Shown: one piece after another, positions 8,612 through 63,175 of the stretch
How the letters are laid out: the number at the start of each line of letters is the position of its first letter
Position numbering within the stretch: position 1 is the first letter of the stretch
DNA from: Phragmites australis
Taxonomy: Eukaryota > Streptophyta > Magnoliopsida > Poales > Poaceae
DNA: 64,000 nt
Reading direction: 5' to 3'
NCBI RefSeq assembly: GCF_958298935.1
Contig: NC_084943.1
Span: 15,121,001 to 15,185,000 of the forward strand
Notes under the pieces: model-generated
What the model was told of the DNA's origin: nothing
The model's input: the letters and a program-made list of their open reading frames with translations, nothing else
Databases searched by the model: none
Translations under genes and position numbers: made by a program

Positions 8612-9668
8612 ATGGCGCAAGCTGCCGCCGCAGGAGGGACCCGCAAGAGGCAGCGCGTCCCCATCGCCAGCACCGAGGACTACGAGGAGACCTGCCGCCT
8701 CGGCGCCGGCGGCTTAGGCGTCGTCGTAAGGGCGCGTCACCGCGCCACCGGCGAGACCGTCGACATCAAGCGCCTCCACTCCAGCGACGGCGGCAACGGG
8801 GAGCTCTTGCGAGAGGCGCGCTTCCTCGAGGCGTGCAAGGGCCAGTCTTTCCTCGTCGGTTACCACGGACCTCTGCCTCGTCATGGAGTACGTCGGGCCC
8901 AGCCTACACGACTACCTGCGCGAGCGTCGCCGCGGACTGCCGCTGCCGGAGGCCACCGTTCGCACCGTGGTGTGGCAGCTACTGACGGGCGCCCAGAAGA
9001 TGCGCGAGCGCCACGTCGTCCACTGCGACATCAAGCCCCGCCAACATCCTCATCGGACGGTCGGAGACGACCACCGGATCGTCAAGATCTGCGACTTTGG
9101 GCTGGCCATATCCATGCGCCTCGCGCCGCCGTACACGCAGGCCGGCACGCTGCCGTACATAGCCACCGAGGTGCTGCTGAGGAAGACCGACTACGACGCG
9201 CTCGTCGACACCTGGTCGCTGGGCTGCGTCATAGCGGAGCTCATCAAAGGGAGGCCACTGTTCGAGGGCAACGACGAGGTGGAACAGCTCTGCGCGATCT
9301 TCGACGTGCTCGGCGTGCCGGACAAAAAGACGTGGCCGGGGTTCACGTCCATGCCACTCGCCGCTGAGGTGCAGACCCTGCAGGCGCAGAAGCGCAACCG
9401 TCTGCGCGAGCTGTTTCCCGAGGAGATTCTGTCCAAGGAGGGATTCGAGGTCTTCAACGGCCTTCTTGCGTGCAACCCTGACAAGCAGCTCACGGCGGCC
9501 GCCGCACTCAAACTCCCGTGGTTTGCCAAGGTCGGCGCGCTGGCGTTGGCGCTGCCGCAGGAGGAGGCAGCGATCACATCGTCGGCGTTGCCCAAGAAGA
9601 AGAGGGTGCTGATCATTCCACCGCCATTGAAAGAGACCCAAGGTCTTGTGGGCCTGAGCATCCATTGA
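8612..9668 (+). pseudogene. CDKF-like (CMGC) serine/threonine protein kinase, intronless, frameshifted
   Basis: Starts MAQAAAAGGTRKRQRVP, then a glycine loop (RLGAGGLGVVVRARH) and the VAIK equivalent VDIK. The frame breaks at about 8868-8880, where several residues between LVGYHG and DLCLVMEYVG are missing. The second frame (to 9668) has HCDIKP (catalytic Asp kept; the usual HRD Arg is Cys), CDFGLA, GTLPYIATEVLL (APE-like), DTWSLGCVIAELIKGRPLF and a C-lobe. Between 9041 and 9085 the sense is shifted: an alternative frame gives ANILIG, so two compensating indels flank the subdomain VIb loop. Closest remembered family: grass putative cyclin-dependent kinase F-2 type genes, which are intronless. 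The missing segment, shifted loop and HCD argue for a decayed copy; a sequencing error could explain single breaks but not all of them. Confidence 0.7.
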
Positions 9669-10428: not shown

Positions 10429-13400
10429 CTACACGTAGTTCATCCTTTTGGGGAGGTTAATGCCAGCTCGCGCAAGGAGGTCTTTCGCTCTTTCTACAGC
10501 AGAAGAAATTACCTCCTCCTGGACCAGAGAAATAAAACAGACATGAGACACCATCAGTGGTATCCTTAGTTATCTATGTTCTCTACTGATTACAGACATG
10601 GTTTGCGGTCAAGAAAACATCATACATAAATATTTAGCTGATGAAAAATGGCTACTATTTCAAAATCCAGATCTTTAAAAATCTGCGGAGTTTATTGCAG
10701 CACATGATTTTCCAAGTTCCAGCATTGCTTAATTAAGCTAGTTTGTGGCAGTGCTACTCCAAAGAACTGTCACTAGTGAAAAAGAGAATTTAGGCAGAAC
10801 CACATATTGTTTGAAATATATCCTCCTGATATGACCATTATGGCGTGAGATGGCAGGATAATTCTGCCATCATGCTGATATGGCTATCATGGCTGTTTAT
10901 GGCAGATTGATTCTGCCATTAATTGTGCCATTTATTAGCTAGATTATTTCCGCTGTAATTAGATGTAATTACCTACCAAAATCTGTACATCCTGTACATT
11001 ATATATATATGCCTAGAGCATCAATGGAAAGAATCATCCATTCCAATTCCTTCCTTCTTTCATGGTATCTGCCTAAACCAATCCTTCCACCCCTCCCTCC
11101 TGCCATGGGTGACAACAGAGAAGCCGCCACTACCTTTGTCAACCTAGCTTCCGCATTATCCACAATCAACGTGCGCTCACACATCCATTTCTCCCTCAAG
11201 ATGCACCCTCCAAATTTCAGCCGATGGCGTGAGCTGTTCACATGCTTTCTTTGCAAGTTCGGTGCCTCCAAGCACATCAATGTCACACAGCACCCAAAGG
11301 TACCGACCCTGTGTGGCAAGCCACCGATTATGGGGTGCGCTCGTTCCTCTACGCTTCGATCTCGGAAGAGATCATCTCCATCGTCCTCACTCCCAGCACC
11401 TCTACTTGCACCATTTGGACCAACATCGAAGGCCTGTTCCATGAAAACAAGGCCTCGCGTGCTCTCTCCCTAGAGGCTGACTTTCGCAATCAAGCGCAAG
11501 GCGATACGTCGATCTACTGCAGGCACCCGTCGCACCCCATCCAGCAAAAGGAGAATACCAAAGACAATTGGCCTAACATGAAGTAACCGACAGTTAATGC
11601 TAGAGCAAGTGGTAGCCACCCTGACATCCCAGCGCAAGTGGGAGCCAGACTGACACATTGGACAGTGCGGTGCCGCAATAAGCGACCGGCTGAGTGCCAC
11701 GCCCTTAGGGCCAATTGGACCATTGTATTGCCATAGTAGATAATATTTTCTGATTAGGGTAAATGCATCCTACCTAGGCTCATGCTGTGCGATTCGATCG
11801 GTCCTAGACCCCTATGATATAGTGATAAGTTGTATCGCTACCTCTGTAAAGGCATGCTTGCACATTTACACCCTAAACGACACTATAAATACAGACCCAT
11901 GGCCATCAGGCCAGAGGACGAATCTTTTGGACGATCAACACGTTTTTGGTTCTCCCTTCTCTCTGCTTCTTCTTCAAGCTTGAGTCTCCTCTCTAGAAAA
12001 GACTATCGCCGCACTCATACGTGGGCCCGGGCCCTAGATGCCTCCTGTGATGACGCTCAGGGCACCTTTGCCGAGCCAGTGTCCTCTGAGAGCCTGGTCG
12101 CCCGGCAGCCCCGACGGCCTCCCCGCGGGGAAGCAGACTCCGGGGACACCACTGGCCCCGAAGGGCATAAATCCCGCTGACATCCTTGGCACCGACCACA
12201 AGCTCCAAAACCACCGGAAGGGTACTAATGCATCCTGCACGGACCTGGACATGGTAACAATACAGACGGTTGCCGAACCCTCATAGCTCTCCGAGAGGAT
12301 TACCTCAAGAGACAAACGGGACACCCGGCAAGGGAAAAAAGTCAGCGACAAGTAACCCAAGGGTCGCAAACCTACAGCGGACCGCCAGGTGGGCGATCAG
12401 GCCTTACCAAGCCCCCCTCGGCCCATTATGAGGACTAAGTCGCAAAAAGGCCCTAGCTATAAACAGAGTTTGGCAAGCCTCCAACGTAGGGGGGCCCGCA
12501 TGAGCCTCCGGAGCGGTTAGGGCCCACGACGTGCATTCCCGTCGGGTTCGATACTGGTGGGATTGGCCGTGGCAAAGAGGTGCAGGGCTCCGGCAATAGG
12601 GCTCTGAGTCCTCCGAATGCACACACAACCCAAACCCTTCAGCAGACAGCCTCGGCCAGAGAAGTCGACCCTTCCACCGCCTTCAGGCTGCAGAGTTCTT
12701 CCTGCCCTTCGACCTTACTATGGAGGCCTCATTTTGGCAAAGGTACGCCCGCTTATAGCCACCTAGCAATAGCTTACCTAGCTAGTTAGTATTTATACAA
12801 CAAAGTCAACGTACTCTAAAAGTAGCTAGCTTATCTTATTGAAAGTCTCCAGATAGCTGCTAGGTAGCAACAGGATACTGTAAGACTTAAGTTATATCTC
12901 TATTTAAACAATAAATAATAAAACCTAAGTTATATCTACAGTCAAAACTTAAGTTATACATTCGCTAAAATGAGACATAGAGGCATCTTAAAAACCTCCC
13001 CCACCGATGGCTTAGCCTCGGTGGCGGGGACACCTTAAAAACCTCCCCCATTGATGGTATGGACTCAGTAGCGGCGATACCTTAAAAACCTTGAAAACCC
13101 TCCGACAGGTCGTAAGTGTAAGCCCAGATGTCATTTTAGTACAAAGAAACCCTCCGGCAGGTCGTAGGCGAAAGCCCCGATGTCATAGAGGTTCTAAAAA
13201 CCCTTCGACAGGTCGTAGGCATAAGCCCTGATATCGTAGAGGTACAAAGAAACCCTCCGCCAGGTCGTAGGTGAAAGTCCCGATGCTGTAGAGGTACTAA
13301 AAACCCTTCAGCAGGCCGTAGACATAAATTCGATGTCGTAGAGGTACAAAGAAAACCTCCCGCAAGTCGTAGGCGAAAGCCTCGATGCCGTAGAGGTACT

Positions 13401-16400
13401 AAAAACCTCCCGACAGGTCGTAGGCGTAAGCCCTGATATCGTAGAGGTACAAAGAAACCCTTTGTTAGATCGTAGGCGAAAGCTCCGATGCCGTAGAGGT
13501 ACTAAAAACCATTCGACAGGTCGTAGGTGTAAGCCCCGATGTCGTAGAGGTACAAAGAAACCCTCCGACAGGTCGTAGGCGAAAGCCCTGATGCCGTAGA
13601 GATACTAAAAACCCTCCGACAGGTCATAAGCGTAAGCCCTGATGTCGTAGAGGTATAAAGAAACCCTCTAGCAGGTCGTAGGTGAAAGCTCCGATGTCGT
13701 AGAGGTACTCAAAACCCTCTAATAGATCATAGGCGTAAGTGTAAGCCCCAATGTCGTAGAGGTATAAAGAAACCCTCTGACAGGTCGTAGGCGAAAGCTT
13801 TGATGTCATAGAGGTACTGAAAACCCTCTAATAGATCGTAAGCGTAAGCCCCGATGTCGTAGAGGTACAAAGAAACCCTCCGACAGGTCGTAAGCGAAAG
13901 CTCCGATGTCGTAGAGGTACTGAAAACCCTTCAGCATGTCGTAGGCGAAAGCCCTGATGACGTAGAGGTACAGAAAACCCTCCGACAAAGTTGAAGGCAT
14001 AGCATCGATGTCATAAAGGCACGGAACCCTCTGGCAGCTCAAAGGCGTTGGCCGAGTACCAAGAGGTCGCGGACTGTCCCCCTCGGTCTAGCTATTGGTT
14101 TCACCTCCGGCAACTGCCGCAGGGGGCTAGATGGCCCTACCTCCGGAGCCTCACCACGGCTAAGGGCCAAGAGGATCGCGGACTGCCTCTCTCGGCCTAG
14201 CTATCGGTTTCACCTCCGGCAACTGCCGCAAGGCATCGGATGGCCCTGCCTCCGGAGCCTCGCCACAGCTAGGGGTGGGCCGAGGGTGTTGCGGACTGGC
14301 TCCCTCAGCCTGGCCATCGGTTTCACCTCCGGCAACCGCCGCAGGGCGCCAGATGACCCTACCTCTGAAGCCTCGCTATGGCTAAGGGCTGAGAGGATCT
14401 TGGACTATCTCCCTCGGCCTAGCCATCGGTTTCACCTCCGGCAACTACCGCTGAACTTCAAAGGGCCTTGCCTCCGGAGCCTCGCCACAGCTAAGGTACA
14501 AGGGGGTCGCGGACAACCTCCCTCGGCCTAGCTATCGGCTTCACCTCCTCCAACTGCCACTGAGCTCCGAATAGATTGCTTTGAGTCGGAAATCTGAAAC
14601 AAATTTGGAGAGGAGTCTATGCCGGCATCGGATAGAAAAATGTTCGTGTCATGCTGGAGCTTAGTGACAGCCAGGGTTGACAGGGTCATAAATGGCCTCC
14701 CTCAGCCTTAATCGTCGACTTCACCTCTATCCACCGCCACTAGGCTTCGGAACTACCTCGCCTCCGACAAAGAGCTCGTCTCATGGCCCCACTATTGGCT
14801 ACACCTCCTCTGCCAGGAACGACTAGGTCACTATCCCCTGCCAAAAGCGTTAGGGTCCAAACCCTCCGCACGTCGATGACACCTACCTTGGTTGTGTTGA
14901 GGCTTAAATCTGTGTAAGACTTCGTCGCTCTAGTCGCCCCTAAAGTGCAAAAAAAAAAGAAACCTACAATCGCACTCTCTAACTGCTAACAACCATTGCG
15001 TGCAAGGGCGCCGGGAAGGTAAGGCACTGAAGCTTAGATACACCAAAAAAAAAAAAAAAAAAAACATGTCTGGCCGTATGCCTGGAGGATCGCCATACAC
15101 TTCGATCAAGAAAAGAAAGAAGAAACACTTAGCGGACCCAAGGACTTAGTTATATTAATAATTTTCACATCCAAAAAGATGCTTACATGCCTTCCAGAGT
15201 ACCTAGTATCTGGACTACTCGGGACCAAAAGCATTGACCAAAGATGGGGAAGAAAACTACAAGCCTTAACAGTGGCGGATGAAGAGGCATATGCGCTTCA
15301 CCTACGGCCTACCGTTGCGGAGGCCGATGTAGTAGCCAGCCCTCACGCTGTCAGACGACGATGACAAGGACGAAGAGGACTCCTCCATGGCCTTCTCTCC
15401 CTCCTCCTTGGCCTTCTCCGCCTAGGCTGCCTCCTTCGCTTTCGCTTTCACCTTCTCTTCCTTGTCGATCTCCTTCTCTAAAAATTCCCAGTCAACCTCC
15501 TCATCGTCAGAGATATCGGTAATCTCGACTGGAGCGACCAATCGGGCTGAAGATCAAGACGGAGTGGCGGGGGCCGGCTCTCCCTGCAAGGATGGAAGCA
15601 CGATGGTGGCCGACTCTAACCTTGCAAATATGCTCGCGGGACCGCTCGCCCCGGAGGCACCACGGCCCGGAACTAGCGTCAGCGCCAGAGGAGACCCCGC
15701 CCCAATCAAGCCTGTCAAAATCATCGACATCTCCAACGATGAGAAGGACGACACCATGATCAAGCTGAAGAAGAATCGGTCTCTTCCACGGCAATAAAGG
15801 ATCAATTGGGTCGACCCCGGCTTTTATAGCCAGACCAATTATTTGCGTACGTCTAGGGAAGGAAACAGAACCGCCACGGGTACCGTCCCGCGGCCTTCCC
15901 AATTATTATCCTAAAGGGTTGTGGCCACATCCCGGTCAGTTCCGCGCGCACACAGCAACCCTTAGTTTTTTCATACACATCCTATTCGCATTTATTAGTT
16001 GAATCCCTTTCGTCACATGCAAGGGCAATCGGCACAAGACCCCATAAGAACCGGCGCATTACCCAAGTCAAACGCAATGACGTTACCATGCGTCATTAAG
16101 CGCTTCAAGAAATAGGGAGAATATCTTGTCTCTACATGCGATCCCCATTATGACAGTTCAAATGGCGAAAAGGCTCGCTATCAGAGAAGCTGAAGAGCTT
16201 GCTCTGACCGCCACAGGGCTTCAATCGGCCTTTAGCTCCAACGCCTTTACGCCTCCGGCCTCAGCACGGGCTCCGGAGTACATGGTCTCCGCTCGAACCT
16301 CGACGGTCTTCGGCTCCAACGACTCTACACCTCCGGCCTCAACACGGGCTCCGGAGCGCATGGCCTCTGCTCGAACTCGACGACCTTCAGCTCCAACGCC

Positions 16401-19400
16401 TCTACACCTCCGACCTCAGCATGGGCTTCGGAGCGCATTATCTCCGTCCAAACCTCGACGGCCTTTGGCTCCAACGCCTATATGGCTCCAGCCTCAGCAT
16501 GTGCTACGGAGCGTATTGACTCTGCTCAAACCTCAACGACCTTCGGCTCCAATGCCTCTACGCCTCCGGTCTCAGCAAGGGCTCCAGAGCGCATCGCCTC
16601 TGTTCGAGCCTCGACGGCCTTCGGCTCCAACGTCTACCGCGTCTCCAACTCTCGTCATTGGACTCCGAACCACACAGTTTCCTCCAGGTTACGCCATCTT
16701 CATCTGGCTTCGTCACCATCGCTTACGATCATCACCGAGAAGCTCTTCTACGACTAGAAGCTATATCAGAATATACTGATTATGAGGCTAGGCTAAAGAT
16801 AGTTCCTTCTACATCTGCTCACCCCTCCACACCTCGGGGCCAACAGATGAAGGGGTACTATTGGTGGAAATATCCCAGCCCACGGATAATACTAAGGGGA
16901 TGCCGTCAAGAGCTTCTCCGGAGCTCTTGGGCTCCGTACTCCCTGCAGAAGCTAATGCTTTCAGAGGTTGTGAACCCCTCCGACCATTGGCTCTCAAGAC
17001 AGGGGAAGAAGCTAGCCTCCAGAAGCCATATCAGCAAAACAACACCAAGGGCAACTGGCCTAACACGAAGTGACCAGCAATTAATGCTGGTGCAAGTGGT
17101 GGCCACTCTAACATCCCAGCGCAAGTGGAAGCCGAACTGACACCTTGGACAGTGCGGCGCCGCAATAAACGACCGGCTGAGTGCCACGTCCTTAGGGCCA
17201 ATTGCACCATTGTATTGACATAGTAGATAATATCTTCTGATTATGGGTAAATGCATCCTACCTAGGCCCATGCTGTGCGATTCGACCGGTACTAGGCCCC
17301 TGTGGTATAGTGATAGGTTGTATCGCTATCTCTGTAAGGGCATGCTTGCATATTTATACCATAAACGGCACTATAAATACAGACCCATAGCCATCAATCC
17401 AGGGGACGAATCTTTTGGATGATCAACATGTTTTTGGTTCTCCCTCCTCTTTGTTTCTTCTCCAAGCTTGAGTCTCCTCTCTAGAAGAGGCTCTCGTCGC
17501 ACAACACTAACTCCAACGGCTCCATGGCTCATTACAAGGCGTGGTGGGTTCTACAAGGCTTCTCACAGCAACCTAGCCTCGATTACGACGAGATATTTAG
17601 CCCTGTCGCCAAGCCATCCACCATTCGAACAGTACTATCCCTCGTCTTTGTAGCAATTGGCCCATCCAGCAACGAGACATCAAGAGTGCCTTCTTGCCTG
17701 ACACCCCCGCTAAGATCGTGTACTGTCAGCAGTCGTCTGGCTTCATTGACTCCATGCACCCGGACCATGTGTGCTGCCTCAACAAGTCACTCTACGGGCT
17801 CAAACAGGCGCCACGCGCTTGGTATAGTCGCTTCCAAGCCTTCATCCACACCATTGGCTTCCAAAGCTCCAAGTGCAACACGTCCCTCTTCATCTACAAC
17901 AATGACTCCGAGTGATTGCATCTCTTCAGCAAGAATTCTTAATGACTGACTTGGGTGCCCTACACTACTTCCTCTGCATCACAGCTCTTCGCTCACCCAA
18001 TAGCATCTTCCTCTTTCAAGAGAAGTACGCTGCCAAGATCCTGGAGCGTGCCAAGATGACTCAGTGCAATCCATACGCCACCCCCATTAAGGAACACTCC
18101 AAGTTGTCATCTACAACCGGCAATCCCGTGTCTGATCCCACACTTTATCGAAGCCTCGCTGGTGCCTTACAATACCTCACCATCACTCACCCCGACATAA
18201 CTCATGTGGTGCAACAGGTATGCCTCCATATGTATTATCCTCGGGAACAACATTTCTCCCTCATCAAAAGAATCTTGAGGTACATCAAAGGCACATTGGG
18301 ATTTGGGACGTGTTTGGTTCCTGGCCCCCACAGGCCAAGCCAAATTTTGGCCATGGACAAATTGAAGCAATGCCAAAATTTTGTAAAAAAAATGTTGTTT
18401 GGTTCGTGACCAAACCAAAGTTAGGGCAGTGACAAAATTAAGGTTTGGATTGCAACCATGCCAAAATTTCTAAAAGTTATGAGTATGACATGTGGGACAC
18501 ATAACTAATTTATTTTAGCGTCAGAATATAGTCAACATGGGTCTTGATTTGTAGATTTAATTACAAGGAATGCGACGGTGCAAACGCATTAAAAGTCGGA
18601 TGCATGGTTTAGGAGATATTGTGATTTAAAATTTGTTAATCCAAAGCTTTTGAAATACGTGCAGCCAGTGGGCAGCTACCACCTCAGCCAGTGGGCAGCT
18701 ACCACCTCAGCCAGTGGCCAAGACAAATGTTGGGCGACCGTTTTGCTCGCCCAGAGCCCTACCCGTGTTCCTCGTTGTCCGTAGCTGGGCCGGCCAAAAA
18801 AATTTTGGGTATGACCAAAATTTGGCCCCCAACCAAACGGAGGCCAAATTCACGGTTGGCTTGGCCTGTTAGGGTCATGATCCAAACACACCCTTGGACT
18901 TCAACTATCCCGTGGCTCAACTAGTGACCTTATCATCTACTCCGACGTTGACTATTTTTCTAAGGGAAAAAGGAAAATAGAAGGTGGATTATTGGGCTAG
19001 CTGCCAAGGCACACGTCGCTCCACCTCTGGCTTCTGTGTCTTCCTTGGAGACAGCCTCATCTCATGGTCCACCAAACAGCTCTAGCGCAGAAGCTGAGTA
19101 CCGCAGAGTGGCCAATGCTGTTACTGAGGCATGCTGGCTACGACAACTTCTCGTCGAACTCCGTCGACCTCTCAAGAAGGCCACCATTGTCTATTGCGAC
19201 AACATCAGCGCCGTGTATCTCTCCACAAGTCCAGTGCAACACCAACGCACCAAACATGTGGAGATAGATTTGTACTTCGTTCGTGAACGCGTTGCTCTCG
19301 GCTACATTCGTGTTCTTCACATTCCAACCTCCCTACAGTGTGCGGATATCTTCACCAAGGGACTGCAGCAATCTTCAACTTTCGGTCCAATCTCAATGTC

Positions 19401-22400
19401 CACTCCACTCCCGGTTGACACTGCGGGGGTTGTTGGAATATATTCTCCTGATATGACTATTATGGCGTGAGATGGCAGGATAATTCTGCCATCATGATGA
19501 TATGGCTATCATGGCTGTTTATGGCAGATTGATTCTGCCATTAATTGTGCCATTTATTAGCTAGATTATTTCTGCTGTAATTAGGTGTAATTACCAACCA
19601 AAATCTGTACATCCTGTACATTATATATATATGCCTAGAGCATCAATGGAAAGAATCATCCATTCTAATTCCTTCCTTCTTTCACATATCATATCAAGGA
19701 AGTTCTTTCCCATGCATATATAGTATATTAAGAATCTAGTGCCTATGTATTCATTTGTCTTTTCAGCTTTCACTGTGTCACAACTGTCTTCAGAAGTTAC
19801 CAACTTAGGTATAAATTAGAAACGAAACGATTTACAATGGTGCCATCATGTTTGGAGTGACAAATAGTAATCTAGGTACTTTCTGGTTATTTCAATGTTT
19901 GAAGTACAATAAACAAGTAGTAAATTACCTCATTCAGATTCACAATCTTATGATCCTTCATAATCCACCGACCATTGCACATAACAGATTCAATATTCTC
20001 TGTCCTCATGCAATAAACAATGTTGGCAACGCTGCATATTAGGAGAAGTGTTATGCCAATAGTCAATGATACAACAAAAGCCCAGCAGTATGTCACAACT
20101 CGCAATATTATAGGCCAGATAGTTTCAGGGAAAAAAAAGTCTAGATACATCAAGTAACAATAAGATTTGCTAGTTACGACCATAAAAGGTTTAGAGTACA
20201 CAATTGACAAAGATATTAGAAAAAAGCTATTATACACTTCTAATACAAGAGTGAAAACATCGATTAACAAAAAAGCCCAGAATGAAACCCATTATGAACA
20301 CTGTAGTAATTCAAAAACTTAACAAATAGATAACTAAAGCATAGTAGTGCACACCTGTCATGTAAAGGGACCATGGACCATTTAAATGGATTCACAACAA
20401 CCAAGTCCGCCTACACAAACAAGAATCGAAATCCATTTCAGTTTGCTACACAAAATAAGCTGGTCAAGCCACTCTTGACTTGAGACAAAGAAATACAGTA
20501 GGAAGCCAGGAAACAACATAATAAAAATGTCACAACGTAAACAAAAATATTGATAGTGTAGTTTCAGGATGACGAAAATGGAGATTTATCCACTTCCAAA
20601 ACGTGTGGACCTATGTTATTGGGCGCCATACACAAACGGAATAACAACTAGGAGCATCACCTTTTTTCCAACCTCCAGTGAACCTATTTCATTATCCCAC
20701 AGAACTGCTTTTGCACCATTAATAGTAGCCATCTTCAGTACAGTCTCAGCAGGAAGAGCAGTTGGATTCGTTGTACCACTGATGTATGCCTCTCGGCCTT
20801 TGTTAATTAGGGATGCTAGGTACATCTCATCCACTGTATAGCACAGGGTAGTCATGTAAATCATTGTGGGGGCTACATCGTTTTATATGTATTGAATAAC
20901 AAAGGTGAACATTCAGTGGAGATACAGATATATAACATACTAATAAAGACAAGGTGGATAGTACAAAGTTCAATTTCATGTAAAAATTGTGCAAACACTG
21001 TTTCAATGAGTTTAAAGAAAACAGAGGAGAATTTGTAACTAAATGGAGGCCTCAAGTAGCAAAAAAACTAATACCTAGACTAAGTATAAACAGGGCAAAG
21101 AAAAGAGAGGAAATAATACTAGTGCTATTTACTCTAATTTTCATTCAACTTTTTCTTAGATTAATTATTATTCTACGCTTTTCCACAAAAGTAGTATTTA
21201 CCTTTGTCTTTTGTTTTAGTGTTGCTTCATATAACTGCACAACTGAGGTCTACTTTAATCTCTACACTACATAGCAACCTAATAATCCATTATCTTTACA
21301 ATTACTGCTTCTACGCATAAATCAAATGGAAAAGGTATTTGAAAATTCTAGTGACGATTTTGAAAAGATGTTGAATACCTACACCACAACATTATTGTTC
21401 TAAATAGCGAACATTAGATAATTATTTGGTTGAAACAGTCTAATGGATAGTCAAGTGGATAGTCAACTAGACTCTCTGATCTATATTCTCTAAATAAGAA
21501 CTTTGATGTTGTATCATGATTTAGGCCCTGTTTGTTTCAGCTTCTTGTAGCTTCTGCTTTTCAGAAGCCAGAAGCTGAAACAAACAGCCTACTTTTGCTA
21601 GCTTCTGGCTGTGGTTTCTGAGAAGCAAAAGCAGTCTTTACTACTACAGAAGCCTGAGAAAACAGAAGCAAGTCTGGATGTATTTGTATTAGAAGCAGGC
21701 TTCTAGAGAAGCCACAGCTTGTAGAAGCTTAAACAAACAGGGCCTTAAGCTCACACATGCTCATAAAATGTTTGTTGTGAGGATATTTTTAAGGCAGACC
21801 AATGCTCATTCTGTTATTGCTTGGTGCTCCATCTGTACCAAGAGAGACACAAACACCAGAATCCAGCATTTCTCTAATTGGAGCAAACCCCAACATCCGC
21901 ATTGCAGATGCAGGGCAGTGAGAAACCTTGACACCAGCCTTTGAGAAATGCCCTATCTGCATTTGAGAATCACAAAAAATGAAACCTTTGTGAAAGAACT
22001 TGCTAGAAGCTGTACTTAAAATTGCAGTATTGCAATCTATTAGAAAAAAAAAGTTGGTAAATAACCGAAATCAGTGCAGAAATTAAGCCAACAGATTTAC
22101 ATGTGGCAAAAGAAACATTCTCGTACAGCTGTGTTAGCAGAGTCATGATGACTTCTACATGATCTAACTAAGTGTACACAGAAGCAACCTTCTTCGGTGT
22201 GCAGAAATTAGCAGAAATTCGTGAGTAGCAGTAGCAGCATTCAGGTTAGTTTTGGTTTTGTTGAATTGGGGAGTTCAGTTTTGTCAGGACTCAGGAGTTC
22301 TGATATTGGAAGGTCACATACAGGCTGAAAAGTCAAGCATATATTAGTTGATTTGTACCAGGCAATGAGATTAGTCCATGCATTAGTCTAAGTAGTCCTT

Positions 22401-25400
22401 TTATAAGGTGATCGTACTCCATTTTGGGCAACAAATGCATAATCTATGTATCTCTTTCTCTTGCATCTACTTATCCTTCCCTGCCGAGCCGAGACCCTTT
22501 GTTATAGCCTGCAGTTCTCATCTTTCTCTTGCCATCACAGCACCGACAGGCTGGCATTGACCTTGCCCTCTGTTAACTCATCCCCACTACCTACACAACA
22601 ACTCAGTCCACAGTTACAGCTAGTAACATTTTTAGCCTATTTTTGATATTTCGTAACTACTGCACATTTTCAGACTACAAACAGGGTAGACAATGTGAAA
22701 GGTAACAATTGATTGTGAAAAAGTTTACTCACCTCAGGTTCATTCAGCCAAACAGAGTGGGCAGCCAGCAAATTACTCCTCAGGAAATTAATTTTCTCTA
22801 GATATGTCACTGTGCCATGATCAATTCCCTTATTCTGCACTATAAGTTGATTTTCATATGGTATTTCTGCAATATGCTGTAGAAAAATTGCAAGACCAAG
22901 GTGTAAGGAAATTACTGCAGATAGCTAAGCAACAAATTATTACAAGACTGGTAAGGTTTTTTTTCATATGCAGCACTTCAGAAAAGCTATATTGGACTCA
23001 ATATAGGTAATTTAGCACAAGCACTTTAGGGGAGCACAAAGCATAAACATGCCCAACTTGAAAACAGTTCAAGCCATTACTCAGACTATCCATGAATACG
23101 TGAACCAGGTTATCATGTAAGTATGCACCAAATGAAGTAGCACACTATCTTAGAAAAGATAAATTTGGATACATAAATATACTACTTTATATAAATACCA
23201 TATGGATTCCGGTATTTAGCTTCTGGGCAACATCTCTTGTTTCAAGCAGTAAACGGTCTGTTGCATTCATGATCTGTCTCAACCCAAACCATACCCTGAT
23301 ACGCCCATCAGCTGTGTTATGATGCTTTTCAAATAAATCCTTCTGCGACTGTACAAAAGAAACGCACGCTGTCACTCAAATCACATAACAGACAAATATG
23401 AAAAGAGCAAAGACATGTATATCTTACTTAGATGAACTTTAACTTGAGCAAGCAGACAAGACTAGAAAATATTCAACGAATAGAGAACACAACCTAACAC
23501 ACAGACTAACTTGGAAAAAAAGATCAACCCCCTAATAGCTGTAGCGCAAGAGAAAGAAAAGAGGGCAAATCAACTAAAAAAGAATGGTACTATAAAAAGT
23601 AACTATTTTGTTTGCACTTTTCATCTTTTCCTACTCTTTTCCTACTTTGTATTATACCTTCAATTTTCACCACAAGTTGTAGCCTACGCTTAACATGCCT
23701 TCTCTGTTTATTCAAAGTTTTGAAATTGTTTACATTACACTGTTGACTTTACACGGAAATAGATCTTCCAGGCTTCCAATAAATACCAGCCCTTGCATAA
23801 TTTTAGCGGTAACCATAGCATGTAATTTTCATATGTTCTGAAGCCAAGAACATGAAACTACAATAGACAATGCCACACAGGAATCTGCTCCATAAATCAG
23901 GGTTCCATAAACCGGTGAGAACTGTAGGTTTTAGCCCAAAAAGGATCGAACAGTCTGTATCTGATTTTGGTATCCTGGTTTCAGGTTCAGCCAGTTCCCT
24001 TCACCCCCTTGAGCCCTTCTTTTAAATTCAACTTACTACCAAGAAGCATACAATTGCAGTACATCCAAACTTAAATCTTCAAAAAAAATTGAATGAATGG
24101 AGCTGGCTCCAGTATCCTAAACCCTGGGGTCAATATTGTCTTGAATAAAACCATTCAAGCTAGGGGAGAACAGAACATAAGGTGTTCATGTTTTTAGCAG
24201 TTCGGTACAGAGGCACGAGTAGGTGAAGCAAAAGAAAGGAGCAAGCAGTAGGTGACTGCATTCAGGAAAGTGGTTACACTGAAAACATTATTTAGTTCTC
24301 AGATAAAAGTGAATGATGTGAAGCAAAGGATGTGTAAACTCTATGGCAGAAGAACACCTGAATGCAATCGTCAGTGGAACAAGAACTCCAATTTGGAGGT
24401 AAACCCTCGCCACAATCCATTGTTGATTTTGTCAAACATGCACGCAAGCCCAACAACTCCACTGCCCGTGCCATTTCTGAAACAAACTGTCCACCTGCTT
24501 CGGCAAAGCATGTCACCTGTCATTCAATGACCAAAGGGGGAGAGAAAGGTTTAGGCATTTTGCATCATTCACGGTGAAAAAATCTGCAGGTTGTTGCTAA
24601 TTTGAGGCTTTGAACATACCAGCCATTCTGCCTACGGAGTACATGTGTAAAAACCAACCACATTCAGAAAAGATATGAAATACGATGACAATGAGCAACA
24701 CATGTGCCGTAGTTGTATATTAATTAAAAGAGCAACAAATGAAGCAATAAACAGGATAGAGAAGACAAAATTAAACAAATTATATAATAAATTTTGGCCC
24801 AGCATTGCCTTTAGCCATACCCCTTTTCTAGAATCTCATCAAGTCTCAACTTTCCAGGTTGCCTCTATATGAACCTTATGAGTGCACAACAGTCGATGGA
24901 TCAGCAAAAGACAACATAAAACAAGCCCTAAAATGCACAGAAATGCAACCAAACTTAACCTCACATGAAAACCTCCATCAGGAGACAAGCATAGCCCATT
25001 CCCCATGAAGATCACAACAGCAAATACTACCAGATTAGAAACCCATGAAGCCTTGCATAGAAATACAATGAATAGTACAAAGGAAATTCAACTTCTTTCT
25101 CTTTAGATTTTGGTTTCTAGCAACTAGTATGTCTTTTTAACGTAATTAAGCGAAGCAAAAGAAAAACAAAACAAAACTTTCTATATCTGATGATAACAAA
25201 AGAACATGTACGTTCATATCAATTACCAAGGTAACTCAACATACCATTCTCTCTTTTGAACAAGCAATTTGCCACCAAAAATTAGACATCCATTATGGTT
25301 TTGACAAAAGAATCCCTAGCAATCAATAGATAAGCCTACTGACTATAGAGCAAGAAACTGCTGGGTGGTGCTAGAGTGTTCCAATGTCACCAGGATATTA

Positions 25401-26232
25401 GGTAGCAGTCCATGTCCATACTCTGATGTTCTTCACTGTAATATTTCAAGAAAAAAATGAAACATTTTGTTTACCTTGACACAAACCTCTTTTAGCAGTC
25501 TAAATTAAGAGAATTTGCAATTATTGCATGAGCGTATCACCATTTTACGGTGCAGAACTAGAGAGCTTAGGCCTGTGAGGCACCCTTTGCATAACAAACA
25601 TATCCTTTTTTTTCTGAACTGTTTGCAAATAACCTTCACCTAGCACATTCAAAATAGCTGATAAACTAGATGCTGGTAACATCATACACACGATTCGTTC
25701 TCTAATTGATCATAACCTAGCTAAGAGAATACAGCATTGGTAACATGGAAAGCTGATGCTCACCCCAGAGCGGATGAGCTCGATGCCGCAGAGGAGCGTC
25801 GATGAGTAGGAGTCCTCCTCCGTCATGTGGGACTCGTACGGCCAGATCCTCCCGTGAAGCCACGTCATCAGGTCGACGTCGTCGGCGATCCCCCGCGCCA
25901 GCTGCTGCGACGTGTGCACGTGCGTGTTCACGAAACCTACCAAGCCAAGCAAGCAAGACGAAATCTACCAAAAATTAGACTAAATTTCGGGGGGAAACGA
26001 GCCTAATCAAGCGGAGGCGCGGCCACCAACCTGGGAGGACGATGCGGCCGCCGAGGTCGAGGGTCTGCGCGGCGCCGGGGAAAGCGGCAAGGACCTCGGC
26101 GGAGGGGCCGACGGCGGCTATGCGGTCGCCGGCGACGGCGACCGCGCCGCCCTGGAGGACGCGGAGCGCGCCGTCCATGGTGACGACAACCGCGTTGTGG
26201 AGGATGACATCGGCCGCCGGCGAGTCCGCCAT
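10429..26232 (-). CDS. ATZ/TRZ-family metal-dependent amidohydrolase (MTA/SAH- or guanine-deaminase-like), 10 exons, 468 aa
   Basis: Exons on the minus strand: 26232-26031, 25936-25764, 24516-24358, 23348-23199, 22876-22733, 21956-21800, 20833-20661, 20410-20355, 20031-19929, 10518-10429. All introns are GT-AG; the exons sum to 1,407 nt in one open frame ending RMNYV-stop. Metal and catalytic residues of the chlorohydrolase/deaminase TIM barrel are present: HxH in NTHVHT (His73, His75), His229/Glu232 in HIAEIP, His268 in AAHSVWLN, Asp318 in [10 protein letters not shown]. Known relatives deaminate 5'-methylthioadenosine, S-adenosylhomocysteine, guanine or triazines; the substrate here is unknown, the location probably cytosolic. 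The ATG at 26232 ([16 protein letters not shown]) starts the conserved region; an in-frame ATG at 26346 would add 38 residues. The last intron (9,410 bp) contains an 8.9-kb copia; without it the intron would be about 530 bp. Confidence 0.9.
10808..11062 (+). repeat. 5' LTR of copia C
   Basis: Begins tgtttgaaat and ends cttctttca; matches 19431-19684 with few substitutions (for example the start tgtttgaaatata versus tgttggaatata). Contains tatatatatat at about 11002-11012, a likely core promoter of the element. Confidence 0.92.
11063..11076 (+). other. Primer binding site of copia C
   Basis: tggtatctgcctaa directly after the LTR. The first seven bases match the initiator-Met tRNA complement (TGGTATCAGAGC) used by plant copia elements; the 3' part has diverged. 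Confidence 0.7.
11104..11535 (+). pseudogene. Copia C gag fragment
   Basis: Starts [20 protein letters not shown] with [16 protein letters not shown] (retrotrans_gag start), then shifts frame near 11285 to read [36 protein letters not shown] and [12 protein letters not shown] (UBN2-type copia gag). It ends at the left junction with the nested gypsy element; the zinc knuckle and everything up to RT are lost. Confidence 0.8.
11538..12019 (+). repeat. Truncated 5' LTR of the nested gypsy element
   Basis: Aligns with 17036-17506 from cagcaaaa through the shared blocks tgagtgccacg, acagacccat and cttgagtctcctctctagaa. Contains a probable TATA box (actataaatacagaccc near 11882). Its first about 180 bp are missing compared with the 3' LTR. 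Confidence 0.8.
12020..13085. other. 5' internal region of the nested gypsy element, no coding domain
   Basis: GC-rich to about 12730, then AT-rich. Several overlapping ORFs exist on both strands but none resembles gag. The stretch 12980-13085 carries two copies of an aaacctcccccacygatgg motif that leads into the array. Confidence 0.5.
13086..14035. repeat. Tandem array of about 54-bp units arranged as alternating dimers
   Basis: About 17 units containing ccctccgacaggtcgtaggc and gatgtcgtagaggtac. Units alternate between an A form (ggcgtaag... gtacaaagaaa) and a B form (ggcgaaag... gtactaaaaa), giving a dimeric higher-order repeat of about 107 bp. Because the unit is close to 54 bp, the minus strand stays open over several units (13624-13809, 13806-14042), but that is a repeat effect and not a gene. 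Confidence 0.9.
14046..14570. repeat. Second tandem array, about 105-120 bp units, 4-5 copies
   Basis: Repeated block with ggatcgcggactg, ctcggcctagctatcggttt, cacctccggcaactgccgc and ctccggagcctcgccac. Units diverge by small indels. GC-rich, adjoining but unrelated in sequence to the 54-bp array. Confidence 0.85.
14571..15461. other. Internal region of the nested gypsy element
   Basis: No recognisable coding domain. Contains a poly-A tract at about 15043-15064 and Ser/Pro/Arg-coding low-complexity stretches. Nothing else seen. Confidence 0.4.
15462..15797 (+). CDS. Hypothetical acidic ORF of the Tat-like element, 111 aa
   Basis: Starts [19 protein letters not shown] and ends in a charged tail containing [12 protein letters not shown]. 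The IDIS(S/N/D)DE string recurs in the 3' region of the gypsy element at 4.4-4.9 kb, once in sense and once in antisense. It is Ser- and Pro-rich with no fold that I recognise. It lies between tandem arrays in the 3' half of a non-autonomous element. The minus strand is also open (15554-15805), so coding status is uncertain. Confidence 0.35.
   Translation: MSISFSKNSQSTSSSSEISVISTGATNRAEDQDGVAGAGSPCKDGSTMVADSNLANMLAGPLAPEAPRPGTSVSARGDPAPIKPVKIIDISNDEKDDTMIKLKKNRSLPRQ
16230..16640. repeat. Tandem array of 78-bp units (about 5 copies)
   Basis: Repeated block with ggcctcagcacgggctccgg, ctcgaacctcgacg and cttcggctccaacg. The unit length is 26 codons, so plus-strand ORFs (for example 16126-16779) read through in frame; I consider these repeat artefacts. 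Confidence 0.85.
16859..17506 (+). repeat. 3' LTR of the nested gypsy element
   Basis: Starts tattggtggaaatatcc after a purine tract; ends near cgtcgcacaaca. The first 180 bp match, in reverse complement, the outer end of the LTR at 60447-61506 (tgttgggggaaaatata). The rest matches 11538-12019. Contains actataaatacagaccc (17371 area). Confidence 0.8.
17507..19430 (+). pseudogene. Copia C reverse transcriptase and RNase H fragments
   Basis: [41 protein letters not shown], then after a frame change [20 protein letters not shown] and [15 protein letters not shown]. The YVDD-containing segment that should follow YNNDSE is deleted; the frame goes straight to [20 protein letters not shown] (17915-). 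Then [18 protein letters not shown] and [13 protein letters not shown], interrupted by a MITE (18305-18893). RNase H follows at about 19070-19370: [58 protein letters not shown]. Catalytically dead. Confidence 0.9.
18305..18893. mobile_element. Non-autonomous hAT-like MITE inside copia C
   Basis: Ends are inverted: gggacgtgtttggttcctgg at the left; at the right, reverse complemented, ggg-tgtgtttggatcatg followed by aacaggccaagcca. Flanks ttgggatt and ttggactt look like an 8-bp target duplication with two differences, the hAT size. The insertion splits the RT C-terminal domain from RNase H. Inside is a 23-bp tandem duplication (18662-18707, cagccagtgggcagctacca). Confidence 0.65.
19431..19684 (+). 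repeat. 3' LTR of copia C
   Basis: Starts tgttggaata immediately after the polypurine tract ctgcgggggt and ends cttctttca, then catat (TSD). Nearly identical to 10808-11062, which suggests a fairly young insertion into the host intron. Confidence 0.92.
21524..21744. mobile_element. Tourist-like (PIF/Harbinger) MITE in intron 6 of the amidohydrolase gene
   Basis: 221 bp with terminal inverted repeats ggccctgtttgtttcagctt (left) and aaacaaacagggcc (right), flanked by the 3-bp duplication TTA on each side (21521-21523 and 21745-21747). The interior is internally palindromic (agcttctg/cagaagc motifs), so a transcript of the intron could fold on itself. It does not touch the splice sites (intron 20834-21799). 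Confidence 0.85.
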
Positions 26233-44885: not shown

Positions 44886-45195
44886 AACCTCCTGTAATTA
44901 TTCTTTTTCCATATGTTACCATTGCGGTAAACTCCCATCTCGAAGGACGCATTCGGTGGGCGCAGCGCAAACAAGTGCAGGCCGTCGTTACTGTCGAAGA
45001 CCCTGATCCACGGCAGCAAGATGAGTCGCAGACAGGCGGGGCCCACCCGCTTTCCAACGTTCTCGTCAGCTCTGCTCCCCCGGCTGTTCGAAAAAAATTT
45101 AAACATCCCCTCCCTCCGTTCGTCCTCCCCTCCTACTCAATCTCCTCATCGGCTCATCGCCGCCGGGATCCAAACGCATCCTCCTCTCAACGTTG
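44886..45195 (+). promoter_or_regulatory. Proximal promoter and 5' leader of the cyclin gene
   Basis: 310 bp between the copia B target duplication and the cyclin ATG. GC rises sharply. The stretch gttcgaaaaaaatttaaac at 45086-45104 and CT-rich leader sequence (45107-45150) are candidate core elements. No canonical M-specific activator motif (AACGG) was confirmed. Confidence 0.4.
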
Positions 45196-48100
45196 ATGTC
45201 GAGCAACGCCGCCTTCCGACGCTCGACGTCGTCGGCAGCGGCCGCGACGGCCAAGCGCCCCGCGGTGGCGGCGGAGAGCGCCGGCGTGGGAGGCAAGGCG
45301 GCCCCAGCGGCGCAGGCCAAGAAGCGCGTCGCGCTCGGAAACATCACCAACGTCGTCGCTGGAGCGGGAGCGGGAGGGGGGAGGGCCATCGGCTCCGGGA
45401 AGGCCTTCGCGGCCCCGGCGAGCACCGCGGTACCGTACTTTTTGATGCTTCTTGGTTGTTCTTGGAATGGATCGAGTGCATTCCTGCTCTTTTCGTCTGG
45501 TGAATCGTTGATGCCTAAATGTGATGTACATTGCTTGAAGCCATCTTCGCCATGGAAATGAGTTATTTTTGGGCAGCTGCAGGAGAGGAGATACGCTGCT
45601 ATTTGTTGGATTTATTATCCATCCATCCAGTAGTATTTATCGTGTTTTTGTTCGTCATCCGACGTTTCTTGGGATATTGTGGCTTGAAAGATTTTTTCTC
45701 TCTTCTTCATCAATCTGATATTCTGATGTGGCGTGTCCTGTCGTTGGCTTAGCTTATGCACAACAGTCCATTTTGCGTTTCACCAGAATCTTACGGATTT
45801 TGTGGTTCCACACCGCAATCTGCAATGAATTTAGCCCATTACTTGTACTGTCCTTTCTCATGCTGAGTTCTAAGACTACGTCTCATGGATTTGTTACGTT
45901 TTCTTGATTGAAATCGTGGGATACATTGATGATCAAAATGCTAGGATGTACCTTATCCTTTTCGCACAAAATGTAGTAGCATTATCAGATGAAATTTTGT
46001 TGTTCACAATGTGTCAATCCTTTGTCTCTGTTTGCGTTGGATTCCTCTCTTGCAATATGATTTTATGCATTCGTAGCGTTGCTGCTAATTCTTGTAATCT
46101 CTTTTTGTACCCAATTAGTGGCGAACCCCAATTTAGAGATTTGAAATAACTTGTTCTTTTTGTTCACAGGAATTGAATCCAGCTACCTCAGCTGCACCAG
46201 TCAAGAAGGGATCCTTGGCAAGTGCTCGTGGTGTTAGCTCTGCTCAGTGTTCTGCTGTGAAATCTGCTTCGACCAAACCTGCTCCAGCTGTATCTCGCCA
46301 TGACAGAGCAACACAAAAGCACAATGTTCCTCCTCCGAAAGTGCCGACTGCTGTGCCTACTGTCGCGCTTGCCATTGCACCCTGCAGCAGCGTTGTGTCT
46401 CCTCTATACTCAGGAGACTCAGTTCCCATTGATGAGACGATGTCAGCTTGCGACTCTAAGAAAAGCCCAGACTTTTCTACATTGGAGACACGGTCTAATG
46501 AACACCTACGTATCTCGGAGGATAGAGACGTTGAAGGTTTGTTTTCCTTGCTGAAATTTCTGTTAGGATTTGTGCTTTATAGTGCATTTGGTTAGTTTTG
46601 GCTCATTTAAAATATATGTCTGATTTTATTTAACAGAAACTAAGTGGAAGAAGAATGCCCCTGCCCCCATGGATGAGGATCCGCAGTTGTGTCCTACTCC
46701 AGCTCCTGACATCTACATGCTCTTGCGTGACGCTGAGGTGGCATATTCTTATCTGAAGCTTTGTCTGTGACAAAATAATTTTCCTCAAATGCTTAACATA
46801 ATAACTATTTTTTAAAAATTCTTAGAGAAGATTTGAAATTTTGCATTGTTTATAATTAATGTTGGAGTTGATGCATCCGTCAACAGATAAAAACTATACA
46901 TCCATTGCACCAAATCAACGAGACCGTAATTTATTTACTGTACTTACGTTTGAGCATATCAGTTCACTTCCCCAGTGTGGTAGAAATAGATTATTGTTTT
47001 CTGAAGTTGTTTTGTCGGTGTATGGACTAAACTGGATTTGATCAAATGAATGTCTAAATCTGATCTGACGAGAAAGTCTTCAATTAGGGCCAGGCAAGCT
47101 CATGATCCATATATACATTCTAGAGTCCTAGAAGACCTGCTTCTTCCCTTTCGATGTATGTTGTTAATAGTACTCACTGCTTTCTAGCAGACCAAGAAAA
47201 GGCCATCAGCGGATTTTATGGAAAGGATTCAAAAGGATGTAACTTCAAGCATGAGGGCTATTTTGATAGACTGGCTTGTGGAAGTAAGCTATAAAGGTTC
47301 ACAAAAAATAAACTTACTTAAAAGCCTAAATTCAATCTTGTTTGACCTAACATTGTATATATGCTTTTTCCTAGTGCAGGTTGCTGAAGAATATCGTCTT
47401 GTTCCAGATACTATATACCTGGCAGTTAACTACATGGATCGTTATCTTTCTGGCAACCAAATCAACCGCCAAAGGCTGCAATTACTTGGCGTTGCTTGCA
47501 TGCTTATAGCTGCGTAAGATCCAGCTAATTCTCCTTTTATTTTTCTTTAAGTTATTGTCACTTAGTATTACACTGTTGGCATACTGAATTTGATATGTTC
47601 ACAACTTCAAATTCAGAAAATATGAAGAGATATGTGCACCCCATGTAGAAGAATTCTGCTACATAACTGACAACACATACTTCAGAGATGAGGTACGTTA
47701 TATGTTACTTTACTTCCAACAGTTCCTTGTTTCTATCTGTTAGATCATGCCATCCAACAGGCCTTATCCGTCGCCATTACTCTCTAAGTTGTACATGTAC
47801 AGGTTTTAGAAATGGAAGCTTCTGTCCTGAATTACCTGAACTTTGAAATGACTGCACCCACAGCAAAATGCTTTTTGAGGTCCTGCTCTTTTCATTTTAT
47901 TAACTTTATGACAATATCACTAAACTTCACTGACTCTTTCCTTGCTTACAATAGGAGATTTGTTCGTGCTGCACAAGTATTTGACAAGGTACTGCTGTTT
48001 TAATCAGCTTCTGCTTACCGGTTGCAATTCCAAAAGTTATATAAATGTTATTGCATTGCACTTACGACCTCTGTTTCTACAGGATCCAGCTTTGCATCTC

Positions 48101-48626
48101 GAGTCCATAGCCAATTATGTCGCTGAGCTATCATTGCTGGAGTACAATCTACTTTCTTACACTCCTTCAATAATAGCTGCGTCAGCTATCTTCTTGGCGA
48201 AATTTATACTCCAGCCAACGAAGTATCCTTGGGTAGGTGGCATCATCATGTTGCCGTTGGCATATACATTTGTAGCAGTTGCCAAATCAAATGTCTGCAT
48301 TGGCTAACATATACTTCTCATTGCAAATTGGAAGCAGAATTCCACCCTTGCCCAGTTCACACAATACAAGCCATCGGAATTATGCGACTGTGTGAAGACA
48401 CTGCACCGCCTTTTCAGTGTTGGTCCTGGGGGTAACCTTACTGCAATCAGAGGAAAGTACAGTCAACATATGGTAACTGGCAGTGCTCCCCAAACTCTTC
48501 AGTTAACAATATTATTGAAAAACTAATGCTGATCCTCTCCTTTTCCTTCCTCAGTACAAATTTGTTGCAAAGATTTACTGTCCAGCGTCAATTCCTACGG
48601 AGTTCTTCCGAGATGCGACGTGCTAG
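45196..48626 (+). CDS. CYCA1: A1-type cyclin (CYCA1-like), 11 exons, 490 aa
   Basis: Exons: 45196-45429, 46170-46536, 46637-46737, 47191-47283, 47380-47513, 47617-47692, 47803-47879, 47955-47988, 48083-48232, 48338-48472, 48555-48626. All junctions are GT-AG and the 1,473 nt form one open frame. N-terminus: MSSNAAFRRSTSSAAAA, then a destruction box RVALGNITN (Arg44, Leu47, Asn52). Cyclin box: MRAILIDWLVEVAEEYRLVP (from about residue 255), NYMDRYLSGNQINRQRLQLL, YEEICAPHVEEFCYITDNTY; a second cyclin fold contains LSLLEYNLLSY and ends FFRDATC. These match remembered rice CYCA1;4-type proteins throughout. Role: activates a CDK at S to G2/M; removed by APC/C through the D-box; nuclear. The spacer after DEDPQLC is shorter than in the rice protein as I recall it. 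3' UTR follows from 48627. Confidence 0.93.
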
Positions 48627-61970: not shown

Positions 61971-62229
61971 GCAATAATCAGCTGGGGATACCATACTATT
62001 TCCCATGCCACACAGAGTGGGCTTTTACTTAATGTTAGCATGATCTTCATAAACGACGTATGAATCGTGTCTTTAGATGAGACTGCAGGGTAATAGCTTT
62101 ACCTGTTACCATACGTGTTTTGAGTCATGCGGTCCATACATCTTCGTGCGGGGAGGAGGATTTATATCCCTTTGGTCTATTGGCTGTGCTTGTCGGGGGC
62201 TAGTGGGCTTCGCACCCCTCTGGTATGGA

Positions 62230-63175
62230 GGGGCTTGCCTTCAAGATGCCGGGGAATTTTGTCCGATAGGTTTTTTGGAACCTCTCTGTCTAGCGGAGGT
62301 TTTTGGAAGACATTCCTGCTTGCGGGGGTTTTTGGAACTCTCTCCGTCTTGCAGAGATTTAGTAAGACTCTCTATCTTGCAAAGGTTTTGGGAGTCTCTC
62401 CGTTTTGGCGGAGGATTTGCAAGACTATTTGGCGGAGGTTTTTGTAAGACGCTTTGCCTCACAGAGGTTTTCGGAAGTCTCTCCGTTTTTGCTAGAGCTT
62501 TTGTAAGACTCTCCGTCTTGCGGGGGTTTGGGGAGTCTCTCCATTTTGGCGGAGGTTTTGCAAGACTATCCGTTGTTGGCGAAGGTTTTTGTAAGACGCT
62601 CCGCCTCACGGAGGTTTTCGGAAGTCTCTCCATTTTTGCCGGAGCTTTTGTAAGACTCTCTATCTTGCAGAGGTTTGGGGAGTCTCTCTGTTTTGATGGA
62701 GGTTTTGCAAGACTATCTGTTGGTGGTGGATGTTTTTGTAAGACGCTCCGCATCACGAAGGTTTTTGGAAGTCTCTCCATTTTTACCGGGGCTTTTGTAA
62801 GACTCTATTTTTGTCAGAGGTTGGGTAGGACTCTCCGTTTTTGTCGGAGGTTTTCGGAAGTCTCACCGTTTTTGTCGGAGCTTTCTCATGGCTCTCTATT
62901 TTTGTCGGAGGTTTGGTAGGACTCTCCGTTTTTTGCTGAAGGTTTTGTAGGACTCTCCGTTTTTATCGGAGGTTTTGTAGAGGACTCTCCATTTTTGCTG
63001 GATGTTTTGTAGGACTCTCCGTTTTTGCTGGAGGTTTTATAGAGGACTCTTCGTTTTTGCAAGAGGTTTTGTAGGACTCTCTATTTTTGCTGAAAGTTTT
63101 GTATCTTTTTGTAAGACTCTCCATTTTGTCAGAGGTTTTGTAGGACTCTCCGTTTTTGCCAGAGGTTTTGTATCC
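62230..63175. repeat. Tandem array of about 32-bp monomers with 147-bp higher-order units
   Basis: Monomer like gaggttttgtaagactctcc gtttttgc. Between about 62440 and 62800 monomers are organised in a higher-order repeat of 147 bp (about 2.5 copies, containing acggaggttttcggaagtct). From about 62800 to 63175 the array is simpler, monomeric. Plus ORF 62077-62919 (280 aa) and minus ORF 62241-62780 (179 aa) are produced by the repeat. Confidence 0.88.

Follow-up and report, generated by a model that had tools for sequence, protein, structure and literature searches.

The deaminase gene and its last intron

The window, by which we mean the whole stretch of 64,000 nucleotides analysed here, is C23:15121001-15185000 of Phragmites australis, and the genome searched comprises 848,066,252 bases in 28 contigs. 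Within the window lies a gene of ten minus-strand exons, running from 26232 down to 10429, which add up to 1,407 bp, that is, 468 codons and a stop codon with no internal stop, and all of its introns are bordered by GT..AG. The parts of the gene, in window positions and with the basis of each assignment in brackets, are as follows.

26031..26232 (-): exon 1, start codon at 26232 (GT..AG border and homology to grass proteins)
25764..25936 (-): exon 2 (joined frame, GT..AG border)
24358..24516 (-): exon 3 (joined frame)
23199..23348 (-): exon 4 (joined frame)
22733..22876 (-): exon 5 (joined frame)
21800..21956 (-): exon 6 (joined frame)
20661..20833 (-): exon 7 (joined frame)
20355..20410 (-): exon 8 (joined frame)
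19929..20031 (-): exon 9, donor GAG/GTAATT (joined frame)
10519..19928 (-): intron 9, 9,410 bp (joined frame)
10429..10518 (-): exon 10, final 29 codons and stop (joined frame, alignment to grass proteins)

The initial annotation had placed exon 10 at 10429-10518 and exon 9 at 19929-20031, had joined ten exons into a 468-aa frame and had noted a gap of 9.4 kb between the last two, and our reconstruction reproduces each of these points. It had also forecast a compact intron of about 530 bp, and removal of the inserted element described below does leave 528 bp, intron 9 being now about 18 times its earlier length. Both splice sites of this intron are untouched and lie 239 and 284 bp away from the insertion; the earlier suggestion that the insertion could be tolerated provided that splicing occurs can be upheld in that conditional form, the gene being otherwise intact. 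Reading through the exon 9 donor would add 13 further codons, VIYYLFIVLQTLK, followed by a stop. Exon 10 is the C-terminus of the other aligned grass proteins, with the exception of Dichanthelium oligosanthes P0008, whose annotated tail differs. Because exon 10 matches these C-termini, and because the alignment of a related fragment on C16 runs gap-free through the insertion point, we see no reasonable account by which gene structure and insertion could both have arisen by chance.

A Pfam scan of the 468-aa protein detected an Amidohydro_1 domain (PF01979, E 1.4e-60) at residues 64-428, and the protein is collinear with ten aligned grass proteins at 87-94% identity (three of these lack an internal stretch and one, P0008, has a different tail), which upholds the earlier assignment to a deaminase family. 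Among the best 120 of 5,205 matches, identity reaches 93% over 100% of the length with Miscanthus and 94% over 98% with Urochloa. The tail encoded by exon 10 is kept in the aligned grass and other monocot relatives except P0008, and the bacterial relative 4f0r can be aligned as far as residue 458. The best 25 of 57 NCBIfam matches all fall below their cut-offs, with 5'-deoxyadenosine deaminase at the top and guanine deaminase lower. The characterised rice guanine deaminase is OsGDA1 (LOC_Os12g28270, on chromosome 12), and the excerpted text of its description names seven positions at which we could compare it with the Oryza punctata protein P0006 (PMC8360030). At an offset of one, P0006 has three of the reference residues and three of the named variant residues (the latter by eye), whereas the others among the 13 offsets tried gave at most two reference residues. 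From the sequence identity, the lack of a second complete reed gene and this residue check, we infer that the reed gene is the OsGDA1 orthologue and of guanine-deaminase type; the two belong to the same protein family, and the guanine-to-xanthine activity of the reed enzyme is a prediction.

Two observations concern the tail in other grasses. The OsGDA1 variants E450G, I452R and R454S, called destabilising in the excerpted report (PMC8360030), coincide with what Oryza punctata P0006 has at these sites, and the arginine at the second of these sites is common to all nine grass proteins with a regular tail, so that the arginine state may be ancestral, at least at OsGDA1 residue 452. P0008, for its part, diverges from the other aligned grass proteins right after exon 9, either because its gene model is mistaken or because the same intron has changed independently in that species.

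The element in intron 9

The insertion had been described as an 8.9-kb copia element with perfect catat target duplications, and both size and duplications were confirmed: the outer element occupies 10808-19684 (8,877 bp), between CATAT at 10803-10807 and CATAT at 19685-19689. It consists of the following parts.

10803..10807 (no strand): target-site duplication CATAT, left (sequence; unoccupied site in the C16 fragment)
10808..11062 (+): 5' LTR of the outer copia-type element (LTR alignment)
11063..11516 (+): copia remnant preceding the inner piece (aligned to a copy on C7 up to 11481; right end by eye)
11542..17502 (+, strand of alignment only): inner fragment of an LTR element, both ends apparently truncated (arm repeats, family copies)
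17503..19429 (+): copia remnant after the inner piece, with two RVT_2 pieces in different frames (Pfam, alignment to the C7 copy)
18307..18893 (no strand): MITE-like insertion of 587 bp, TTGG at both flanks, within the copia coding region (absent from the C7 copy)
19430..19684 (+): 3' LTR of the outer copia-type element, with a TATA-like run at 19622 facing antisense into exons 9 to 1 (LTR alignment)
19685..19689 (no strand): target-site duplication CATAT, right, with an extra CATAT directly adjoining at 19690-19694 (sequence)

The outer LTRs, of 255 bp each (TGTT...TTCA), are identical at 245 of 255 sites, and the ten differences (six transitions and four transversions) correspond to a K of 0.040 with a standard error of 0.013. 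Taking 1.3e-8 changes per site and year for rice LTRs, the insertion would have an age of 1.55, roughly 1-2, million years. Of the two RVT_2 pieces, one passes the PF07727 cut-off (1.8e-8) and the other falls short of it (5.7e-7). Because these reverse-transcriptase pieces read on the plus strand and the gene on the minus strand, the outer element is antisense to the deaminase gene. The remnant at 11063..11516 sits in what we take to be the gag position, and a Pfam scan of its frames gave no match; the stretch following the RVT_2 pieces is presumably RNase H, and a Pfam scan of this stretch likewise gave no match.

The outer LTR has 13 matches in the genome, two of them the window's own, and a two-LTR copia copy, about 4.8 kb long, is found at C7:9475500-9485000 (L050). 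Relative to this copy, the window element lacks about 2,473 bp between its first part and the reverse transcriptase, as well as 60-70 bp more near 17910, and it carries the MITE-like insertion at a site that is uninterrupted on C7. In Ty1/copia elements the integrase lies upstream of the reverse transcriptase; in the outer element, about 2.47 kb of the C7 copy is missing at that very place, a loss that we read as decay. The RVT_2 match and the relatives of the element lead us to assign it to the Ty1/copia LTR retrotransposons. With 2.5 kb missing in comparison with C7, a foreign LTR fragment, a reverse transcriptase split between frames and the MITE-like insertion, it looks dead.

The initial annotation had spoken of a nested retrotransposon. 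This is correct in that a second LTR-type piece lies inside the copia element, but not in the sense of a clean nested insertion with its own termini and target duplication, because the flanks of the piece do not match, 2.47 kb of copia is missing and sequence of the inner family passes the borders. By eye, all 17 of the other distinct copies have family sequence beyond the left border and 13 have it beyond the right one, the match ending short in the remaining four. At the flanks of the inner piece no target duplication is visible, and it sits where the approximately 2.47 kb held by the C7 copy is missing. It thus looks like a truncated fragment that replaces 2.5 kb of copia, by one of three routes: capture, deletion after insertion, or recombination. 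In our searches for this LTR-type family, 40 of 142 candidates were scored in one and 40 of 568 in another; the latter 40 included no recent donor of the fragment, the best relative having 82% identity over 1.3 kb. If the 474-bp arm were read as a complete LTR, copies flanked on both sides by family sequence would have to be tandemly arranged; we favour instead an LTR longer than the arm, the piece being truncated.

That a composite of copia and captured LTR fragment arose elsewhere and entered intron 9 as one unit is a tentative proposal, which we regard as possible and somewhat doubtful. The arms of the inner piece (11542-12014 and 17029-17502) are identical at 415 of 473 sites, and are thus more diverged than the outer LTRs (58/473 versus 10/255, P = 0.00015), as if the piece had been old on arrival, an idea that its truncated look and the lack of a visible target duplication would fit. 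The 58 differences comprise 47 transitions and 11 transversions, and the transition excess persists when calculated per GC site (P = 0.002, counted sites). However, the excess is confined to transitions (47 versus 6), and transversions, at 11/473 versus 4/255, give no support by themselves (P = 0.59), so that we do not treat the older look of the arms as proving a composite origin; methylated GC-rich DNA may decay faster, which could account for the transition excess. Nor was a second composite found, the left junction being spanned by the window alone among the 40 of 142 candidates scored. As a separate observation on the inner family, the region C13:2033000-2042999 (L056) holds three arm copies on one strand that share their left flank, as tandem or recombined elements would.

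Other copies and constraint on the coding sequence

A six-frame search of the whole genome with the entire protein yielded 12 matches from 16 scored candidates, nine of them to the window gene, two on C16 and one on C19, and no second complete copy of the deaminase gene was found. As far as these searches go, the window gene is the sole complete copy, without a complete partner in this allotetraploid. The alternative raised in the initial annotation, that a locus with the compact intron exists elsewhere and that the window holds a silent copy, is not borne out by the C16 and C19 matches, which are fragments only; since no second complete copy was found, the window gene would be no silent spare.

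The deaminase fragment at C16:5107386-5108637 (L003/L004) can be aligned with exons 8-10 and with the 3' flank, the protein matches corresponding to exons 9 and 10 and exon 8 having been seen separately. Its intron 9 is compact, and the insertion site is unoccupied and aligned without a gap, its five target bases being different. Exon 9 of this fragment is without its last bases and original donor, with GTATGT after the new in-frame end, and exon 10 shows 11 differences from the window, nine synonymous and two not; the fragment might be part of a chimeric transcript. The C19 piece is an exon-7 fragment with one TGA in the matched stretch, a 3-bp insertion and a 1-bp deletion. The C16 fragment was considered as a homoeologue, its divergence from the window (258 of 1,370 aligned sites, exons included) being near the published reed subgenome Ks peak of 0.2, but this was rejected: the neighbouring stretch at 45193-45500 of the window has its best match outside C23 on C22 (79% at C22:14416264, a single weak marker). 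This suggests C22 as the homoeologous chromosome, and the whole-genome protein search, with its 16 scored candidates, gave no match to a deaminase gene there. We therefore keep the C16 and C19 pieces as dispersed fragments.

Residues private to the reed protein number seven out of 468 in comparison with the ten grass proteins, which have from 2 to 29 each (20 in P0008, mainly through its divergent tail). At the LTR-derived rate, a coding sequence free of constraint should have gathered about 20 missense changes since the insertion, and the probability of seven or fewer is 0.001; with the neutral rate halved it becomes 0.24, so the outcome hinges on the assumed rate. The missing stops prove little, because only 0.77 nonsense changes would be expected and the probability of none is 0.46. 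Taken as a whole, this favours a constrained coding sequence. Of the seven private residues, two lie in exon 10, which encodes 29 residues: at residue 448 the window has E, against K in the C16 fragment and in all nine grass proteins whose tail is regular, and at residue 451 it has K, where C16 and four of the nine have N and the other five S or T. In the nine other grasses (P0008 dropped), exon 10, with 29 of 468 positions, accounts for 9 of 87 private residues. There is a hint of relaxed constraint on exon 10; it is not significant either against the nine grasses (P = 0.16) or in a Fisher test on length alone (0.064), and we dropped relaxation on these grounds.

Fate of the transcript and known intronic elements

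We consider it probable that the locus is a working, sole-copy gene of guanine-deaminase type with a dead antisense copia element in its last intron, and that the 9.4-kb intron is spliced out; transcription, splicing, heterochromatin, enzyme activity and age are all features that we infer. A low-copy copia-type element would have jumped recently, in antisense orientation, into the last intron. Because both splice sites are untouched, at the distances from the insertion given above, intron 9 would most likely be transcribed and then removed by splicing, and the element would persist as intronic heterochromatin, by analogy with maize and rice genes of this kind.

It is unlikely, in our estimation, that transcripts mostly stop in intron 9, so that after residue 439 the protein would end in VIYYLFIVLQTLK and lack the 29 residues that exon 10 encodes. 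The frame does stay open for 13 codons past the donor before reaching a stop, and the Amidohydro_1 match finishes at residue 428, ahead of exon 10; the catalytic domain would thus be kept, and exons 1-9 could be under selection while exon 10 drifts, a pattern that the two of seven private residues in exon 10 would fit. Intron 9 also contains, on the gene strand, six AATAAA/ATTAAA hexamers, five of them within the element (a raw count, without control). However, the alignment of 4f0r to residue 458 gives much of the tail a bacterial counterpart, exon 10 is more variable in the other grasses too (9/87), the intron 9 acceptor and exon 10 itself are intact, and the termination signal of the antisense element should face away from the gene transcript. 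Very unlikely, to our mind, is a silent or dying copy, shut by heterochromatin or by antisense RNA from the outward-pointing 3' LTR, whose TATA-like run at 19622 is aimed antisense through exons 9 to 1. Loss of the gene is perhaps tolerated in a grass, since some rice accessions carry OsGDA1 variants read by the authors as possible null alleles (PMC8360030, excerpt). Yet the reed gene shows few private residues and no stop, frameshift or splice-site loss, no other complete copy was found that could take over, and in the excerpted maize survey intronic transposons have no link to lost expression (PMC4133378). As for a mistake in the assembly, long repeats can be misjoined, but the perfect target duplications and the matching unoccupied site, together with a PacBio and Hi-C assembly that has 59 gaps genome-wide and a QV of 66 (PMC11549543, excerpt), make this explanation practically negligible.

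A working gene with a spliced, element-filled intron would not be exceptional. According to the excerpted survey of maize, 4,156 of 39,656 filtered genes have intronic transposons of more than 1 kb, most of the long ones are LTR elements, and unexpressed genes are no commoner among the carriers (PMC4133378). For rice, the count is 4,227 gene models with heterochromatic introns out of 37,866 (about 11%); many of these loci are transcribed, and some are protected by OsIBM2 from premature polyadenylation (PMC7145194, excerpt). Because so many maize and rice genes carry comparable introns, the reed case is most likely a further and ordinary member of this class. It shares with the maize carriers a long intronic element of LTR type, and with the OsIBM2-dependent rice genes an element-filled intron and a predicted need for transcription through heterochromatin; unlike them, it is one gene in another grass, and whereas heterochromatic introns in rice are enriched near promoters, the reed element lies in the last intron. 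RPP7 of Arabidopsis offers a copia element in the intron of an intact gene with a possible effect on transcript ends, but there COPIA-R7 is in intron 1 and its 5' LTR is the polyadenylation site, whereas the reed element is antisense and in the last intron (PMC7529245, excerpt).

IBM1 is like the reed gene in being linked to methylation and in having an intron (intron 7 of IBM1) that, in the reed, is probably methylated as well, but a regulatory loop has been shown for IBM1 (PMC11265718, excerpt) and would be conjectural in the reed gene. According to the excerpted report, knocking out OsGDA1 left rice with less SAM, SAH and adenosine and with more DNA methylation (PMC8360030), and IBM1 is an example of a gene coupled to genome methylation through a methylated intron (PMC11265718, excerpt). 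Intron 9 could then be imagined to act as a valve, controlled by methylation, on an enzyme that in turn restrains DNA methylation, which we regard as a long shot. If full-length reed transcripts required the element in intron 9 to be methylated, as is the case at IBM1, less methylation would mean less full-length enzyme and methylation would be pushed up again; one recent transposon insertion would then have created the metabolic equivalent of the IBM1 loop. The link between enzyme and methylation makes the locus worth considering, at low odds, for a methylation-sensing loop other than that of IBM1. The locus is also a tidy natural example of a sole complete, conserved gene of purine catabolism in an allotetraploid that has recently accepted a last intron about 18 times longer, with an unoccupied relative of the insertion site present in the same genome. 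Since the insertion looks young and several reed lineages have been sequenced, accessions with and without it may exist, and these would permit a direct measurement of its cost.

Other features of the window were noted in passing. Just downstream of the deaminase gene, at 8612-9668 (+), two overlapping open frames, with a protein-kinase domain in the second (the one that was scanned), probably represent a frameshifted, decayed kinase gene. At about 45193-48307 (+) lies a cyclin gene with a Cyclin_C domain in the frame at 47942-48307; we take it to be of the A-type, with its first exon at 45193-45500, a stretch in which a Pfam scan gave no match. Finally, the repetitive open frames on both strands at 62077-63352, with their short recurring motifs, are probably a tandem repeat inside another element.
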